Part shown: positions 14,428 to 55,953 of the stretch, piece after piece
Layout: each line of letters starts with the position of its first letter
Numbering within the stretch: the first letter of the stretch is position 1
The notes under the pieces: model-generated
What the model was told of the DNA's origin: nothing
Seen by the model: the letters and a program-made list of their open reading frames with translations, nothing else
Databases searched by the model: none
Translations under genes and position numbers: made by a program
NCBI RefSeq assembly: GCF_029889745.1
Contig: NZ_CP123639.1
Location: forward strand, 596,501-660,500
DNA length: 64,000 bases
DNA from: Ligilactobacillus faecis
GTDB taxonomy: Bacteria > Bacillota > Bacilli > Lactobacillales > Lactobacillaceae
Direction of reading: 5' to 3'

Positions 14428-14556
14428 GTTTAAGTGGAAATAATAAGACTTACTTCTACTAAGAAAAAATGTGAGGTAGAACAAACACTTAAACTAAAAT
14501 GAAAGGACTAGCTATCTTTTTCTTTAACCATCACATTGAGATAGCGGGACAAAACA
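14428..14556 (+). promoter_or_regulatory. Structured leader and hairpin-bridged SD of the metal ATPase
   Basis: GTTTAAGTG (14428-14436) is complementary to CACTTAAAC (14486-14494). Then GAAAGGA (14501-14507) lies 49 nt from the ATG, too far to work directly. GCTATCT (14511-14517) pairs perfectly with AGATAGC (14539-14545). Folding this 7-bp stem leaves the SD 14 nt from the ATG. Only a weak GCGGGA sits close to the start. This is one of six such sites in the window. Confidence 0.6.
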
Positions 14557-16365
14557 ATGAAACACTCAACTAAACTTAGTTTGATCATTTTGATCGCGCT
14601 CAGTGCAGCTGTCCTTGAATTTGGTTTTAAAGCTACTCTTAGCGCTCAGATCATCGTGACTTTGACAGGTACTCTCATGGCTTTATCAATGTTAGTCGAA
14701 ATGATCAAAACTTTACGTGCTGGCAACTATGGCGTCGATCTTTTGGCGATCACTGCTGTAGCAGCGACCCTTGCGGTAGGACAATACTGGGCTTCCATGA
14801 TTGTGTTGATCATGTTAGTCGGTGGTGAGTCTTTAGAAGACTATGCCGCTAAAAAAGCCCACACTGAGTTAAAAGCGTTGTTAGATAATTCGCCTCAAAC
14901 TGCACACAAGTTAACAAAAGACGGAGAAACTAGTGATATCAGTGTTGAAGAAGCTCAGATCGGGGATAAACTTCTCGTTCGCCCAGGAGAAACAGTTCCT
15001 GTCGATGGACATATCATTTCTGGGAGCAGTCTCTTTGATGAAGCGAGTTTGACAGGTGAATCACGCCCGATCGCAAAAGATCAAGGCGACACGATCTACT
15101 CTGGTTCGATCAACGGTGACAGTGCGATCACGATGGAAGTCGACAAACTCGCTAAAGACAGCCAATATCAACGTCTCGTTCAATTAGTCAAAGAAGCAGA
15201 CAGCACACCAGCAGATTTTGTCAGACTAGCTGATCGCTATGCCGTCCCTTTTACCGCGATCGCTTTTGTGATCGCTGGGATCGCCTGGTTCTTATCAAAA
15301 GATCCGGTTCGTTTTGCTGAAGTTTTAGTCGTTGCCTCACCTTGTCCGCTGATCTTAGCTGCTCCAGTCGCGATCGTTTCAGGGATGAGCCGTTCTTCGA
15401 GAAATGGGATCGTCGTCAAAACTGGGAATGTGCTTGAAAAGCTTGCCAGCGCTAAGACCGCAGCCTTTGATAAAACGGGCACGATCACTAGTGGGCGCTT
15501 ATTTGTCGACAAGGTCGTCCCAACTTCAGGTACGACTAAAGAAGAGCTTTTACAATACGCTGCTAGCGCTGAACACTCTTCAGGTCACATTTTAGCGCGT
15601 TCACTTTTAGCTTATACTTCAAAACAAGCCCTTAGACCCTTAGCAGTCACTGAGTTGATCGAAGTTACTGGTAACGGCGTCAGCGCCAAACTCAACGAAC
15701 AAACTTTAAAAGTCGGAAAAGCTTCTTTTGTCGTTTCTGAGCCTCAAAAGCTCACTTTACCAAATCAAACGAGTATCTTTGTTTCCCTTGATGGTAAATA
15801 TCTTGGCTATATCTCTTTTATCGATAAATTACGGCCAGAAGCTGCTGAGACGATGCAAGTTTTAAAACGCCATGGGATCAAAAACTTATTGATGTTGACT
15901 GGTGATCAGCCACAGATCGCCCAAAAGATCGCTAAAGCCGTTGGGATCACGACGGTCAAAGCCAAACTCTTGCCTGAAGAAAAGATCCAAGCTTTAAAAG
16001 ATGTGCCTAAAGCAGAGCATCCTGTGATCATGGTCGGAGATGGGGTCAACGACGCGCCTTCTTTAGCTGTGGCTGATGTGGGGATCGCCATGGGGGCTCA
16101 TGGAGCGACCGCTGCTAGTGAGTCAGCAGATGTTGTCATCTTAAAAGATGATCTCCTAAAAGTCGCTAAAGCCGTCGAGATCGCCCAAGACACGATGAAG
16201 ATCGCGCGCCAAGCAGTTTTGATCGGGATCTTTATTTGTATCTTCCTGATGTTAGTTGCCAGTACTGGGGTGATCCCAGCGATCATCGGAGCGCTTTTCC
16301 AAGAAGTGATCGATACCGTTTCGATCCTTTGGGGCTTACGAGCTCGTTTTTCAAAAGAAAAATAA
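14557..16365 (+). CDS. Heavy-metal P1B-type ATPase
   Basis: A 602-residue metal-exporting P-type ATPase. It has no N-terminal CxxC metal-binding domain. Actuator TGES is at 166-169, the transmembrane metal motif SPCPL at 261-265, the phosphorylation site DKTGT at 305-309, and the hinge GDGVNDAPS follows. SPC in place of CPC is typical of P1B-4-like transporters such as Fe/Co exporters (PfeT, FrvA, CoaT). However, the last membrane helix reads QEVID (582-586) instead of their HEGG motif, so the metal is uncertain. A Fur/PerR-like box upstream would fit iron or peroxide stress. It is monocistronic, with a strong terminator right after the stop. Confidence 0.88.
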   Translation: MKHSTKLSLIILIALSAAVLEFGFKATLSAQIIVTLTGTLMALSMLVEMIKTLRAGNYGVDLLAITAVAATLAVGQYWASMIVLIMLVGGESLEDYAAKKAHTELKALLDNSPQTAHKLTKDGETSDISVEEAQIGDKLLVRPGETVPVDGHIISGSSLFDEASLTGESRPIAKDQGDTIYSGSINGDSAITMEVDKLAKDSQYQRLVQLVKEADSTPADFVRLADRYAVPFTAIAFVIAGIAWFLSKDPVRFAEVLVVASPCPLILAAPVAIVSGMSRSSRNGIVVKTGNVLEKLASAKTAAFDKTGTITSGRLFVDKVVPTSGTTKEELLQYAASAEHSSGHILARSLLAYTSKQALRPLAVTELIEVTGNGVSAKLNEQTLKVGKASFVVSEPQKLTLPNQTSIFVSLDGKYLGYISFIDKLRPEAAETMQVLKRHGIKNLLMLTGDQPQIAQKIAKAVGITTVKAKLLPEEKIQALKDVPKAEHPVIMVGDGVNDAPSLAVADVGIAMGAHGATAASESADVVILKDDLLKVAKAVEIAQDTMKIARQAVLIGIFICIFLMLVASTGVIPAIIGALFQEVIDTVSILWGLRARFSKEK

Positions 16366-16473: not shown

Positions 16474-16509
16474 CGAAAGGAAGGTCTCAAACAGACCTAA
16501 ATCATTTTT
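16474..16509 (+). promoter_or_regulatory. Hairpin between SD and start of the GT14 gene
   Basis: GAAAGGA (16475-16481) is 28 nt from the ATG. AGGTCT (16482-16487) and AGACCT (16493-16498) form a 6-bp stem with loop CAAAC directly after it, leaving 11 unpaired nt before the ATG. No other SD lies closer. It has the same layout as the other bridged sites, but the stem sequence differs. Confidence 0.6.
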
Positions 16510-17385: not shown

Positions 17386-17695
17386 GCACGAGAAATAGAT
17401 GCAACATTGTATAAAAAATAGTATCATGGTTACTGAGTGCTTTATTTACCACAGCCTATTCTGAGGAAGATAAAGTTTTATTTGTTTAGCAACTAAAAAT
17501 GATCCTAACAGTCTCAGATCCATTGGAAAATCAAAATGTGGAATGGATCAGTCTCTCCTGCGGATCCCTACGAGTTAGACTCGTTTTCATCAAAGAGTTT
17601 CTACGATATTTTTATGAAAGGACAGGCTATATTTTTTCCAAAAAAACGACTTAGCTCTTTTAAGTCTATTTCACACGTTATATAGCAATATCATT
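17386..17695 (+). promoter_or_regulatory. Structured leader of the GT2/GT4 pair, with hairpin-bridged SD
   Basis: This 310-bp gap holds several hairpins: GATCCATT (17517-17524) with AATGGATC (17542-17549), and ACGAGT-tag-ACTCGT (17570-17584), which is followed by TTTTC and could be a weak terminator. Then comes GAAAGGA (17616-17622), with GCTATAT (17626-17632) perfectly complementary to ATATAGC (17680-17686), and 9 nt to the ATG. No SD lies near the ATG itself. No coding sequence is apparent. Confidence 0.55.
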
Positions 17696-18694
17696 ATGCT
17701 GATCTCTTTTATCATTCCGACTTACAATGCCGTGAAAACATTAGAAAGAACAGTCGCTAGTATCCTGGACCAACAAATGGAGACTGATTACGAAGTCTTA
17801 CTTGTCGACGATGGTTCAACTGACAAGACTTTAGCATTAGCTCAAAAGTTGGCACACGATCATCCAAAAGTAAAATGTTTCACAGCAGGACACGGCGTTT
17901 CACACGCGCGAAATATCGGCTTAGCTCATGCTAAAGGAACATACATCACTTTCATCGATGCTGACGATCACTATTTACCCCAAACATTACCTCAAGTCGT
18001 AACAAAGTTGAAACAGACTGATAGCGATCTAACTATTTTTAGTTTTGAGCATGGGCAAACTCCTGTCATTTTGAATTTAGCTGGACTAGATCATGCCCAA
18101 AGTCTAGCCTTGATGCTCAGCAAGCCAACAAACTATCTCACTGCTTGGGGAAAATTCTTCAAACGTTCATTGCTTATCAAACACCAGCTCTACTTTGATG
18201 AAGAGCTCACGATGGCTGAAGATAGTGACTTTGTGATCCGCTATTTATTAGCTTGTGAAACGATCGTCTCCTCTGATTTGGTCATCTATCACTATACGAT
18301 CGATACACCTTCGGCTACCCGAACTTTTGATGAGACTAAAACAGCACGTTATTTAACAGCGTTAGCTAAACTCAAACCGTTGATCGCAAAAAGTTCTGAA
18401 CCGCTGACGACAAGTTTTTACAAATATGTTTTGATCCAACTAAATATCATCGCCGTGCGCACGATCTATCCGAAAAATAATCCTGAAACATCACAGGAGA
18501 AAAAGCGACGCTTAAACCGCGTCCTACACGATCCGGTGATCAGTGAAGCTTTACAAAAGATCTCACTTAAAGATTGTTTGACACCTCACTTACTTCCCGG
18601 GTTATTTTTAAAACTTCAGTGGCGCGCATTAGCGATCGCATTATTCAAATTACGTAGTCAACAAAATTATAATAAGGAAAATTCTAGCAAATAG
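17696..18694 (+). CDS. Family 2 glycosyltransferase
   Basis: A 332-residue GT-A enzyme starting ISFIIPTYNAVKTLERTVASILDQ. VDDGSTDKT and GVSHARNIGLAHAKGTYITFIDADDHYLP supply the nucleotide-sugar and DXD-type metal motifs, and AWGKFFKRSLL with MAEDSDFVIRYL are later family blocks. The C-terminal third is helical and basic. It is 2 bp from the GT4 gene downstream, so the two act in one pathway, probably on a wall or EPS glycan. There is no SD beside the ATG; a hairpin-bridged GAAAGGA is proposed. Confidence 0.9.
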   Translation: MLISFIIPTYNAVKTLERTVASILDQQMETDYEVLLVDDGSTDKTLALAQKLAHDHPKVKCFTAGHGVSHARNIGLAHAKGTYITFIDADDHYLPQTLPQVVTKLKQTDSDLTIFSFEHGQTPVILNLAGLDHAQSLALMLSKPTNYLTAWGKFFKRSLLIKHQLYFDEELTMAEDSDFVIRYLLACETIVSSDLVIYHYTIDTPSATRTFDETKTARYLTALAKLKPLIAKSSEPLTTSFYKYVLIQLNIIAVRTIYPKNNPETSQEKKRRLNRVLHDPVISEALQKISLKDCLTPHLLPGLFLKLQWRALAIALFKLRSQQNYNKENSSK

Positions 18695-18696
18695 TT

Positions 18697-19728
18697 ATGA
18701 AATTAAAGTTTTTATGTATGTTTCTTTCTGGCACCGGTGGCACAGAGACTGTCTTAGTCAAAGTCTTGAACGAACTTTGCCATCAAAATGAGATCGAACT
18801 CATCTTGACCAATCGACCTCAAGAAGATACTTGGTTAAAAAAGCTCGATCCAAAGATCACGCTCAGTATCTACGAAGGGAAGTTCAAACGTCTTTCTCGG
18901 ATCGCTTGGACTTTCTTGACCGCTTCAAAAGATACATGTTTTATCTCACTTAGTCCTAAAATGATCAAACTTGGGGCTAGGCTGCGGCAGTTATTTCACA
19001 AAGACTATAAACTTATCTCTTGGATCCATTTCTCATTAAATGAGCAAAACATGTTTGATGCGCAAACAACTTTACCGTTAGCCGACGGGCATCTGGCGAT
19101 CAATTCTGTGATCAAAGAGCAACTCATCAGTTACGGGATCGCACAAGAGAAGATCTTTTTGATCCATAACCCGATCGAACCAGTCGCTAAAGCGCTCAAA
19201 CCTAGCACTAAACCTAAAAGTTTCTTTTACGCTGGTCGGATCACTTTTTTAGGTCAAAAAAACCTCAAAGAACTTTTAGATGCTCTAGCTCTTGTTGAAG
19301 ATGCAACGTTAGATGTCTATGGTACAGGCGAAGATCTGGAAAAATGTCAGACTTATGCTGCTTCACTAGGGATCGCAGAGCGGATCACCTGGCATGGCTT
19401 TACCGCTGAGCTTTGGGAGCAGATCAAGGTCAGGCCAAGCGCTTTGATCTTGACTTCGACCTTTGAAGGATTACCGATGATCGCGCTTGAAACTGCTGCA
19501 CATGGGATCCCGATCATCTGTAGTAACTTTAATGGCTATCGGGACATTTTACAAGAAGATCGCAACGGTTTCAGTTATCAACTCCACAACATCGAGCAAC
19601 TTGCCCAAAAGATGAATATGATCGATCAAGTTGCCTTTGGACCAGAGCAGATCAAGGCTAGTATCCAAGCTTTTTATCCGCAAACTTATTTTAAAAATTT
19701 TGAAAAAGCCTTGCATAAATTAAAATAG
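18697..19728 (+). CDS. Family 4 glycosyltransferase
   Basis: A 343-residue GT-B enzyme. The N-terminus has FLSGTGGTETVLVKVLNEL (acceptor loop, Gly-rich). The C-terminal half has KSFFYAGRITFLGQKNLKELLDAL, YGTGEDLEKC, ITWHGF and the donor motif LTSTFEGLPMIALETAAHGIPIICSNFNG with the EX7E pair. It begins 2 bp after the GT2 stop; AAGGA is 17 nt upstream, far from ideal, so translation may be coupled. It ends inside a strong bidirectional terminator. Confidence 0.9.
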   Translation: MKLKFLCMFLSGTGGTETVLVKVLNELCHQNEIELILTNRPQEDTWLKKLDPKITLSIYEGKFKRLSRIAWTFLTASKDTCFISLSPKMIKLGARLRQLFHKDYKLISWIHFSLNEQNMFDAQTTLPLADGHLAINSVIKEQLISYGIAQEKIFLIHNPIEPVAKALKPSTKPKSFFYAGRITFLGQKNLKELLDALALVEDATLDVYGTGEDLEKCQTYAASLGIAERITWHGFTAELWEQIKVRPSALILTSTFEGLPMIALETAAHGIPIICSNFNGYRDILQEDRNGFSYQLHNIEQLAQKMNMIDQVAFGPEQIKASIQAFYPQTYFKNFEKALHKLK

Positions 19729-19771
19729 GAAGTTCTCATCACTCTCGTATGAAGTAATGAGAACTTCCTAT
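19725..19771. terminator. Bidirectional terminator between convergent glycan units
   Basis: ATAGGAAGTTCTCAT (19725-19739) pairs perfectly with ATGAGAACTTCCTAT (19757-19771). The stem contains the plus-strand GT4 stop codon and ends at the stop of the minus-strand polymerase. Confidence 0.9.
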
Positions 19772-20947
19772 TTATATTGCTTGCTTTTGCGGTAGTTTGG
19801 CAAACAACGCCAAGAAGATAAAATTATATGAGATATTCCAAAGGTGTTGGTCGATCCCTGAAGTTAAAATAACTAGTAGAAAACAGATGATCCAGTAATT
19901 TAGTTCAACTTTTTTGAATCTTACAAAAAGCACATAGATCAATACAAGTAGTAGTGAAAAGACAACTAGACCATGCATCATCAATGTCCGGACATACGAT
20001 GAATCAAGATAGAAATAATCTAAGATCTTAAAGCCACCACCAAAACCATTTTGGTAAATGAATTGCCCTAAGATCGGAACATTATAATTTTCAAAAGCCA
20101 CATGCTCATAAAAAAGCCGCCCTGACAGAAAATTATTTATCTTTGCCAACAATCCAAACTGGGGCGAGTAAAAATATCCCGACAAAATGATCACAAAAAT
20201 GTAAAGCGTACTCAATAAACTTAAGGCTTGCGCACTTAACTTTTTCAAAAAAACATTTAAGCGTTCATAAAAGAAAATACATCCGATCAATAAGAGCATC
20301 AACATCAGATCGATCCGAGTATCAGTTACGACATAGATCAATAATGTCAACGCCACATAAGAGATATACTCAGCAACAGTCAACTTAAAGCGTTTTAAAA
20401 CAGCATAAGCCATCATCATAAAAAAGACTCGGGAAGCTAGATCAGTTGGATAGACAGCCCCAAGAGCAAAACGTAACGCTGGTGAATCACTGCGCGTTAC
20501 GATCACACTCTTTACGCTCCCTAAGCTTGAAAACACAAAGGCCAGACCGATCACAAAAAGATTGACACTGAGAAAAACTTTTAAGATCTGATCGATATTG
20601 ATCCCTTGCGCACCAACGATAAAAAATAAAAAGTAAAAGATCAAAAATTCGTCGGCACTTGTTCCAACTGCAAACAAAACTACTTCCAACAAGAAAAAGA
20701 TCGCTAAGTCTTTTAGATCATGTTCATCTAGAAAAACGATCTTTAATAAGACTAAAAACGCAGGTAAAGCAGAGAGATAAAAGATCCCGCGCTGGGTGAT
20801 CAAAAAATTGACTAACATCGTTCCTTTGAGTGCCATCGCTAAAAGATAGATACTCAAAGCCCCTAAATAGATCCAGGTCCTTAGCTCCGGAAAGCGTGTC
20901 GTCAACTTCGCCTTGTACTTATTTCTAACCGTCATTAATTCTTCCAT
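19772..20947 (-). CDS. Wzy-like membrane polymerase
   Basis: A 391-residue protein with about 10-11 hydrophobic segments and few charged stretches, closing with NYWIICFLLVILTSGIDQHLWNISYNFIFLAL. It is clearly paralogous to the 27791-28981 gene: shared blocks include 'LVLLKIVFLDEHDLK', 'YPTDLASRVFFMMMAYAVLKRFKL', 'DTRIDLMLMLLLIG' and '...HLWNISYN'. A role as polymerase of a lipid-linked oligosaccharide is inferred from topology and from the glycosyltransferases upstream in the operon. Its ATG overlaps the upstream stop by one base, with AAGGA before it. Confidence 0.7.
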   Translation of the reverse strand: MEELMTVRNKYKAKLTTRFPELRTWIYLGALSIYLLAMALKGTMLVNFLITQRGIFYLSALPAFLVLLKIVFLDEHDLKDLAIFFLLEVVLFAVGTSADEFLIFYFLFFIVGAQGINIDQILKVFLSVNLFVIGLAFVFSSLGSVKSVIVTRSDSPALRFALGAVYPTDLASRVFFMMMAYAVLKRFKLTVAEYISYVALTLLIYVVTDTRIDLMLMLLLIGCIFFYERLNVFLKKLSAQALSLLSTLYIFVIILSGYFYSPQFGLLAKINNFLSGRLFYEHVAFENYNVPILGQFIYQNGFGGGFKILDYFYLDSSYVRTLMMHGLVVFSLLLVLIYVLFVRFKKVELNYWIICFLLVILTSGIDQHLWNISYNFIFLALFAKLPQKQAI

Positions 20948-27673: not shown

Positions 27674-27742
27674 AATTGATGACCCACTATACTTCTTTCC
27701 TAAATACAATGTGATTTCAGAAAGAAGATAGTTTTTCCTTTC
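27674..27742 (-). promoter_or_regulatory. Hairpin-bridged SD of the YfhO-like gene
   Basis: On minus, GAAAGGA (27742-27736) is followed by AAA and the arm ACTAT-CTTCTTTC (27732-27720). The arm pairs with GAAAGAAG-T-ATAGT (27699-27686), 13 bp with one bulged base: the longest stem of the six sites. Then 12 nt lead to TTG at 27673. Confidence 0.6.
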
Positions 27743-45064: not shown

Positions 45065-46408
45065 CTAATTCTTAAAACTATGGATCGGAGCTGGGATCGA
45101 TCCACCACGTTCGATCAACTTTCGACTATCAGCACGTACATAATCCATCAGTGGCGCATAGCCTAAAAGTCCGCCAAATTCAACTTCTTCTCCTACCTTC
45201 TTTCCTGGGACTGGTAAGATCCGAACTGCTGTCGTCTTATTATTGATCATCCCGATCGCTGCTTCATCGGCAATCATTCCACTGACTGTTGTCGCAGGGA
45301 TATCTCCAGGAACGGCGATCATATCAAGGCCAACAGAACAAACAGCTGTCATTGCCTCTAATTTAGCTAGTGAAAGCGTCTTTTCTTTAACAGCTGCGAT
45401 CATCCCTGCATCTTCCGAAACGGGGATAAAAGCACCTGAAAGTCCGCCAACATGGCTACAAGCCATAATACCACCTTTTTTAACAGCATCATTTAGTAAC
45501 GCTAGTGCTGCTGTCGTACCATAGGCCCCTACTTGTTCCAACCCGATCTCTTCCAAGATCTGTGCAACTGAGTCGCCCACTGCTGGCGTAGGTGCTAACG
45601 AAAGATCAACGATCCCAAAAGGCACATTTAGACGCTCAGATGCGATCGTGCCAACTAATTGTCCCATACGTGTAACTTTAAAAGCCGTCTTTTTGATCGT
45701 TTCCGCCACCTCATCTAAAGGTCGACCTTTGACTTTTTCTAGCGCCACTTTGACAACGCCTGGTCCAGAGACGCCAACATTGAGAACGACATCTGGCTCA
45801 GAGACGCCATGAAATCCACCAGCCATAAACGGATTATCTTCGACTGCATTGCAAAAAACAACTAGTTTAGTATTAGCACGATAATCGATTTTAGCTGCTT
45901 CAGTGATGACTTCACCCATCTGACGGACTGCATCCATATTGATCCCACTCTTGCTCGAACCGACATTAACTGAACCACACACAAGTTTAGTTTGTGTCAA
46001 AACTTCTGGTAAAGAAGCGATCAACCGCTCATCTGCTTTAGTCATGCCTTTTTGCACAAGCGCAGAAAAACCTCCGATAAAGTCTACTCCTAAATCTTTT
46101 GCAGCACGGTCAAGCGTTTTTGCATATTTAATATAATCTTTAGCCTCAGAATCTGCTGCCACTAAGGAGATCGGGGTCACCGTGATCCGTTTATTGATGA
46201 TCGGGATCCCATATTCCATCTCGATCTGCTCAGCAACTTTAACGAGGTCCTTAGCCTTAGTCGTAATTTTAGTGTAGATCTTTTGGCAAGCTTTATTACT
46301 ATCGCTATCAACACAATCAAGGAGGGAGATCCCCATTGTGATCGTGCGTACATCTAAGTTTTGGTCTTTAATCATCTGGATTGTTTCTAAGATCTTTTCA
46401 AATTCCAT
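45065..46408 (-). CDS. UPF0210/DUF711 family protein (PFL-like)
   Basis: A 447-residue protein of the widely conserved UPF0210 family, structurally related to pyruvate-formate-lyase-like barrels; no enzyme activity is established. Landmarks: [15 protein letters not shown] near the start, [86 protein letters not shown]. It is nearly always next to an ACT-domain gene, as here (46595). The start has no SD at normal distance; a hairpin-bridged GAAAGGA is proposed. Confidence 0.92.
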
Positions 46409-46445
46409 CGACTCACACTGCTATATATAATATAGTCTTCCTTTC
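46409..46445 (-). promoter_or_regulatory. Hairpin-bridged SD of the DUF711 gene
   Basis: On minus, GAAAGGA (46445-46439), AGA, then CTATAT-tat-ATATAG (46435-46421), then 12 nt to the ATG. Unfolded, the SD is 30 nt away; folded, 15 nt. This is the shortest loop of the set. Confidence 0.55.
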
Positions 46446-55761: not shown

Positions 55762-55953
55762 TGATATACTTCACTCAACATACATAATGCTTTATGTAGG
55801 CGTGTTCATCAGAAAGTGTAAAAATGAGGGGTGCACACGCTGAGCAAACATACCTGCTCAGGAAAAGTCGTTTTCAAACTCATAGAAAGGAAAAGCTATA
55901 TTACTTTCTCTTAGTTAATTACTGAGCCTTTATTTTGTATAGTAGGGTCGCAT
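55762..55953 (+). promoter_or_regulatory. ilvE promoter, structured leader and hairpin-bridged SD
   Basis: Extended -10 TGATATACT (TATACT 55765-55770). The leader has GCGTGT (from 55800) pairing with ACACGC, then CTGAGCA-N8-TGCTCAG. GAAAGGA (55885-55891) follows, with AAA and GCTATA (55895-55900), complementary to TATAGT (55938-55943, one G-U), then 10 nt to the ATG. A weak AGGG sits at 55944. A 33-codon frame from 55824 rich in Leu/Tyr also crosses the leader. Confidence 0.5.

Follow-up and report, generated by a model that had tools for sequence, protein, structure and literature searches.

IS607-family transposon right ends as putative hairpin-bridged ribosome-binding sites in Ligilactobacillus

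Recurrent hairpins upstream of start codons in the genome of Ligilactobacillus faecis are, on well-supported sequence grounds, the right ends of an IS607-family transposon, which carries a TnpA serine recombinase and TnpB. Most of these ends are relics, many of them old ones that now appear to provide ordinary genes with a working start signal. We consider it probable that the explanation holds as a whole, namely that the transposon separates the Shine-Dalgarno (SD) sequence of a gene from its start codon, that its right end supplies a hairpin-bridged SD, and that relics are retained because the gene depends on them.

Results

A distant SD and an intervening hairpin recur across the genome

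The window analyzed here is a stretch of 64,000 nucleotides of contig NZ_CP123639.1, in which a sequence-only reading had described six genes with a distant GAAAGGA and a complementary arm before the start. All six sites lie where they had been placed (Table 1), and the arrangement extends to far more than six genes. The pattern GAAAGGA-N3-(R)CTATNT (GAAAGGANNNRCTATNT) has 38 matches in the whole 2.38-Mb genome, 18 and 20 on the two strands, compared with 1 for the reversed pattern. One of the 38 loci (L019) is a chance match. In the remaining 37, the complementary arm follows 3-54 nt after the first arm, and in about 30 of them an open reading frame (ORF) of at least 50 aa begins 7-14 nt past the complementary arm (24 of the 38 by the script's own arm choice, with L002, L007, L014, L015, L023, and L036 added by eye).

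The loops in the window span 3 to 47 nt and the hairpin ends 9-12 nt before the start, both as previously claimed. The three-nucleotide linker is present at the 14557, 17696, 27673, 46408, and 55954 sites, and the folded SD-to-start distance in these five is 12-15 nt, where 11-15 nt had been given for all six. At the 16510 site, AGGTCT abuts GAAAGGA directly, and we can list this site only as a candidate member of the family.

Table 1. Elements in the window, with their SD sequences, pairing strands, and distances from hairpin to start codon.
Element	Span	Strand	Downstream gene	SD	H1 arms	H2 strands	Loop	Distance to start
Solo element	14468..14556	+	P-type ATPase gene (14557)	GAAAGGA 14501-14507	GCTATCT 14511-14517; AGATAGC 14539-14545	AATGTGA 14468-14474; TCACATT 14531-14537		11 nt to ATG
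16510 site (candidate)	16475..16509	+	ATG 16510	GAAAGGA 16475-16481	AGGTCT 16482-16487; AGACCT 16493-16498			11 nt to ATG
Solo element	17616..17695	+	Glycosyltransferase gene (17696)	17616-17622	GCTATAT 17626-17632; ATATAGC 17680-17686	Weak	47 nt	9 nt to ATG
Solo element	27674..27742	-	ORF starting TTG 27673 (in-frame TTG at 27709 would give a longer ORF)	27742-27736	ACTATCTTCTTTC 27732-27720; GAAAGAAGTATAGT 27699-27686 (one mismatch)			12 nt to TTG
Solo element	46409..46445	-	DUF711 gene (46408)	46445-46439	CTATAT 46435-46430; ATATAG 46426-46421		3 nt	12 nt to ATG
Solo element (L011)	55821..55953	+	ilvE-like aminotransferase gene (55954)	55885-55891	GCTATAT 55895-55901; GTATAGT 55937-55943	AAAATGAGGG 55821-55830; CCTTTATTTT 55927-55936		10 nt to ATG

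Within a sample of 464 kb (the window together with 20 stretches of 20 kb), a stem scoring at least 6 and placed 7-13 nt before an ORF start bridges 17 of 108 GAAAGGA sites; 40 shuffles gave 2.4 such sites on average and never more than 6. Where GAAAGGA is used directly in the same sample, the start is most common at a distance of 8 nt (8/36; range 3-12). Some bridging stems differ in sequence (TCTATAAA/TTTATAGA, AATGTTTTT/AAAAACATT). Separately, GAAAGGA is bridged by stems unrelated to CTATAT in L057 (minus strand, near 17893), L043, L054, and L040, for example CATACG/CGTATG before a der-like gene, and these are possibly bridged SDs of other origin.

An Rfam scan of the window returned no relevant family. 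A sub-threshold match to mir-583 at 19720-19776 on the minus strand (32.6 bits, with a gathering threshold of 80) is probably due to chance. Elsewhere in the genome, 5_ureB_sRNA (RF02514, 76.7 bits) matches L007 at 620-917 in the urease region, one gene of which has a solo element.

The motif is the right end of an IS607-family transposon

Eight of the loci have a long repeat in common, and their alignments stop within a few nucleotides of arm 3 plus AG. In seven of these eight, an open tnpB lies upstream, with a serine-recombinase frame further upstream; Pfam assigns Resolvase to a 205-aa piece of the latter, and OrfB_IS605, HTH_OrfB_IS605, and the Cas12f1-like TNB domain to TnpB. The IS607-type element is about 2.03 kb long, with tnpA upstream of tnpB, left junctions that contain GGAG, and right ends that finish in CAG. 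Diverged tnpB ends persist in L004, L020, and L032, such that the 38 motif loci comprise 7 with open tnpB, 3 with tnpB remnants, and 27 solo elements in addition to the chance match.

All seven tnpB-bearing copies have a match to the Rfam family Transposase-1 (RF03014) about 20 nt upstream of GAAAGGA, and none of the other 31 motif loci has one at the gathering threshold. The tnpB-bearing loci scanned gave Transposase-1 and not RAGATH-18, a model that our Rfam copy may lack. The motif is absent from the 3' ends of the 11 genes inspected among 13 further TnpB genes in the genome. In all five copies for which a tnpA start was found (L079, L080, L081, L084, and L085), tnpA is interrupted early; tnpB is open in seven genome copies. 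That the loci have the arm sequence in common follows from their being right ends of this transposon.

At left ends such as that of L079 (about 2290-2325), the leader of tnpA contains ATATCTAC/GTAGATAT on either side of its own GAGG, and these strands could form a hairpin around the tnpA SD. A dispersed repeat beginning GAAAGGAGACGATCGAAAGAAATTTTGG in L044, L045, L047, L050, L052, and L056 is apparently an unrelated insertion sequence.

Insertion occurs on GGAG, mostly before start codons

GGAG directly precedes all 23 distinct left ends that were located, after chance pattern matches inside genes had been set aside by eye and the duplicates L198, L210, and L227 dropped. On the other side, 33 of the 46 distinct insertions have the start of an ORF (at least 60 aa) 4-13 nt past the right end, compared with 1965 of 24,800 random positions (7.9%) and 91 of 435 AGGAG sites in a genome sample (21%). 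Part of this excess may reflect purging of insertions that fell within genes. Of the 62 loci entered, 46 were scored; 5 repeated another locus, and for 11 the script located no right end or no tnpB 3' end. Among the 13 misses are L162 (right end misplaced; ATG at 7 nt by eye), L166 (frame cut short), L184 (GTG at 3 nt), and five of the genome's seven tnpB-bearing copies, which do not lie before a start; L199 was counted among the 33 at a misplaced end, and its ATG is 7 nt away by eye. Overall, insertion on GGAG, mostly directly before start codons, is well supported by these comparisons. Judging from N-termini read without a database, the genes behind the right ends look like gyrB, polA, pyrH, copA, and truB, and in Agrilactobacillus the N-terminus resembles recA.

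Covariation supports a first helix, and complementarity suggests a second

The hairpin formed by the two arms (H1) was examined in 29 elements, those left of the 38 loci once L019 and the eight transposon-like copies had been removed. Paired bases occupy 197 of 203 cells. When the 3' arms are exchanged among elements, the mean is 185 and the highest value 192, and 0 of 2000 trials reach 197 (one 3' arm, in L007, is misassigned in this count). Pair 6 is A-U in 22 elements, C-G in 4, U-A in 1, U-G in 1, and mismatched in 1, and pair 1 is G-C in 15, A-U in 6, G-U in 5, and A-C in 3. The compensating stem changes that had been noted at the six window sites are borne out by covariation across the set. 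An operator for a transcription factor was set aside because of this covariation and of an arm separation that ranges from 3 to 54 nt.

Thermodynamic folding backs H1 only modestly. The RNAfold minimum-energy structure includes H1 at 14557, 16510, 17696, 27673, and 55954 and lacks it at 46408; the centroid structure lacks it for 17696 and 55954, and the z-scores of the six window sites range from -2.1 to +0.5.

A second helix (H2), which the sequence-only reading missed in describing H1 alone, would form between the bases directly 5' of arm 3 and a strand upstream of the SD. Examples include TAAAATGTGAA/TTCACATTTTA (L006), AAAATGAGGG/CCTTTATTTT (L011), AAGATGTG/CACATCTT (L013), and CTAAAGTGTCG/CGATACTTTAG (L025). 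For the 23 elements with a loop of at least 14 nt, the mean H2 score is 7.61 with the element's own partner and 6.46 with swapped partners; none of 5000 permutations reaches the own mean, with the best coming close at 7.58 (the 3' arm of L036 is misassigned in this scoring). A good H2 is absent in L009, L010, L014, L020, and L038. Taken together, H1 and H2 would constitute an H-type pseudoknot.

For the transposon copies, the tnpA leader, about 2 kb away (AAAATGTGAGG in this genome), is the likely H2 partner. L162 combines the tnpA leader GAAAATGTAGG with the right end TTCTACATTTT; L163 does not fit this pairing (AAATATGGAG with TTCTACATTTT). Transposon ends that are complementary in this H2-like way could equally be repeats to which transposase binds. 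A further pairing is possible in many copies, between GAAAGGA itself and a downstream UUCUUUC.

The right end carries an SD-like sequence in a fixed place

When the hairpin was searched without requiring GAAAGGA, two patterns were mildly enriched over their reversed forms (40 compared with 34, and 27 compared with 16; for the first, the upstream sequence was read at 30 of the 40 places). An SD match of at least 5 nt lies directly 5' of the arm in 25 of the 33 hairpins followed by an ORF of at least 50 aa, and a 5-nt SD match near the start is present in only 2 of the 33. Most of these hairpins belong to the same elements as the 38-locus set, and hence they are not an independent sample. Variant SD-like strings occupy the same place in several elements: GGGAGG (L313), GAGGGG (L316), AAGGAAGGA (L336), and GAAGGG (L337 and L343). 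A distant SD, an intervening hairpin, and compensating changes, the marks of a hairpin-bridged SD, are all found in the sequences. Spacing and covariation are likewise consistent with the parallel drawn earlier to phage T4 genes 25 and 38, with a distant SD that the hairpin would bring near the start.

Alternatively, GAAAGGA and H1 could be kept purely as a scaffold for the TnpB guide RNA, with host genes translated by other means and the relics being scars; insertions would then lie before starts because the transposon-adjacent motif (TAM) is AGGAG. TnpB guide RNAs of such type are described as ending in a pseudoknot of the last scaffold nucleotides (PMC11061315), the GAAAGGA:UUCUUUC pairing would suit such a role, and a more distant group of elements that lacks GAAAGGA still lies before starts (see below). 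However, the 27 solo elements without a detected tnpB remnant or, at the gathering threshold, a Transposase-1 match keep the SD, H1 pairing, and start spacing; in some, another SD-like string takes the position of GAAAGGA; and a 5-nt SD match close to the start is seen in only 2 of the 33 hairpin-bearing ORFs. We regard this reading as unlikely for the set, while it could still apply to the intact copies.

Distribution of the element and its absence from orthologous loci

The motif is concentrated in a few members of the same genus, with 38 matches in this genome, 20 in G222, 16 in G090, 15 in G254, 5 in G205, and 3 in G059, and 0-2 in every other one of the 397 genomes of the family searched. 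Loci from G059, G205, and G238, which belong to this genus, Ligilactobacillus, are duplicates of loci from L. ruminis, L. agilis, and Ca. L. avistercoris. Loci of the element come from Ligilactobacillus, Limosilactobacillus, Lactobacillus, Loigolactobacillus, Companilactobacillus, Agrilactobacillus, Schleiferilactobacillus, Weissella confusa, and a Lachnospiraceae bacterium. By eye, GAAAGGA is kept and H1 rewritten yet paired in Loigolactobacillus (TATGCAA/TTGCATA), Companilactobacillus (TATGTAA/TTACATA), and Weissella (TACATGAA/TTTTATGTA). The relatives in Agrilactobacillus and Schleiferilactobacillus, whose TnpB is 44-46% identical, have no GAAAGGA, although they lie before starts. In elements L212-L218 and L222 (Agrilactobacillus, Schleiferilactobacillus, and a Lactobacillus MAG), the terminal sequence is TTTAGAAAGCAG or one like it, and the host ATG follows 7-11 nt later.

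No such element precedes truB in 25 other genomes of the genus, ilvE in 16 other genomes, or DUF711 in 14 other genomes (full matches, with four weak matches left out). For these three genes, relatives mostly show an ordinary SD in place of the element, and an AGGAG-type SD precedes ilvE in all 17 loci from the 16 genomes. In the truB start region of G320 (L094), which ends TTTTATATAGTAGATAAATA-ATG and has no GAAAGGA, GGGAG abuts TATGTAAA, which could pair with TTTATATA; this is perhaps an independent bridged SD. The scpA-scpB junction is uninterrupted in relatives, with GGTGA before the ATG in G090, G254, and G222; in this genome, the scpB start region reads GGTGGGAG, then the whole transposon, then AG-AAACA-ATG. 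Four pairs of solo elements precede the same genes in G222 and G254 with their pairing kept (10 fetched from each), and some solo elements are hence old. Taken together, the sequence comparisons support descent from the transposon well.

These comparisons also bear on a host origin, in which the motif would be a cis-regulatory leader of a regulon, bound by a protein or acting as a switch, that was later captured at a transposon end. The many unrelated genes, the conserved arm, and the alternative pairing of GAAAGGA with UUCUUUC would all be compatible with such a leader, and the sequence-only reading had taken the conserved arm to imply a binding protein or switch in a host motif. That claim is not supported, given the presence of the same right end on full-length tnpB copies in several other genera; moreover, the tested orthologues (truB, ilvE, and DUF711) are without the element, and the genes, as read from their N-termini, have no evident common pathway. 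The transposon match and the orthologue comparison led us to drop a host riboswitch or regulon, and we consider a captured leader very improbable. Equally doubtful are solo copies as mobile, non-autonomous (MITE-like) derivatives moved by TnpA from elsewhere. Solos often join a tnpA-leader-like AAAATGTG strand to the right end, as expected from an internal deletion, but those among the 38 differ strongly in sequence, and tnpA is interrupted early in all five copies of this genome for which its start was found; a MITE reading of the near-identical copies was likewise dropped once tnpB was found in them.

Discussion

The preferred explanation, that of right ends acting as bridged SDs, would involve the following steps. 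The transposon goes in immediately 3' of GGAG, in many cases separating the SD core of a host gene from the start codon. Its right end, which makes up the 3' portion of the guide-RNA region of TnpB, brings its own SD-like GAAAGGA, followed by the 5' strand of H1, whose partner strand consists of the final nucleotides of the element. The fold would remove the intervening RNA from the path and place the new SD some 11-16 nt from the original start codon, such that translation of the host gene is kept through a hairpin-bridged substitute SD; in many solo copies, H2 beside H1 would stabilize the bridge as a pseudoknot. While tnpA and tnpB decay, the right end would be retained, since the gene no longer has an SD of its own.

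This proposal draws on transposon identity, GGAG at the left end, starts beyond the right end, absence from orthologues, H1 covariation, and element-specific H2 complementarity, all of which are read from the sequences. Translational bridging itself we infer from covariation, spacing, and SD variants, and given that the solo copies have kept these features, a bridged ribosome-binding site is the best explanation for them. GAAAGGA would accordingly be a working SD in this proposal, H1 and H2 would form in the mRNA, and selection on translation would keep the relics.

A variant that we regard as possible, with a low likelihood, is a right-end RNA with two states, in which GAAAGGA paired with UUCUUUC belongs to the TnpB guide scaffold and the open, bridged SD is the host ribosome-binding site, with host translation tuned through TnpB binding or processing. 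If so, the relics could stay under the control of TnpB from intact copies elsewhere in the genome.

Self-splicing introns, including IStrons, are mobile elements that ease the cost of their insertion through an RNA fold. In contrast, nothing is removed from the RNA here, and the fold would serve initiation. The closer precedent is phage T4, where a hairpin between SD and AUG cuts the spacing from 27 to 11 nt in gene 25 and from 22 to 5 nt in gene 38, with the effect of the split SD demonstrated by mutation and reporters (PMC3014915). Those are single phage genes, whereas here a mobile element has been carried to dozens of genes.

For IS607 itself, (G)GG is reported as the preferred target (PMC6188088). 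Transposons of the family are not known to create a target-site duplication, and they have a 2-bp exchange core, GG, in common (PMC6188088). Ren et al. (2024) describe related IS607 TnpBs with the TAM AGGAG (18 of 22 strains) or GAGGG (4 of 22), and IS607 elements, ISFba1 among them, with TnpB and a RAGATH-18-derived guide RNA, in which the last nucleotides of the scaffold form a pseudoknot and the AG-rich TAM adjoins the left end (PMC11061315). The present elements have in common with these the TnpA/TnpB pair, a non-coding scaffold downstream of tnpB, and the AG-rich TAM at the left end; unlike them, the scaffold matches Transposase-1 in Rfam. The 59-nt RF03014 model stops before GAAAGGA and H1, and the solo elements have no match to it at the gathering threshold. 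The published TAM AGGAG is an SD core. The main text of PMC11061315 does not contain the words Shine-Dalgarno or ribosome and is not known to assign the right end a part in translating the host gene, and among titles and abstract openings of the open-licence literature searched, none ties a TnpB or IS607 target or end to an SD role.

If correct, the explanation would account for the resemblance of some TnpB TAMs to SD sequences. The transposon would land on ribosome-binding sites and yet keep its targets translated, also before gyrB-, pyrH-, polA-, and truB-like genes, and the end of a guide RNA would have been domesticated as a 5' leader. Dozens of independent natural bridged SDs would then be available for measuring the rules of structured initiation.
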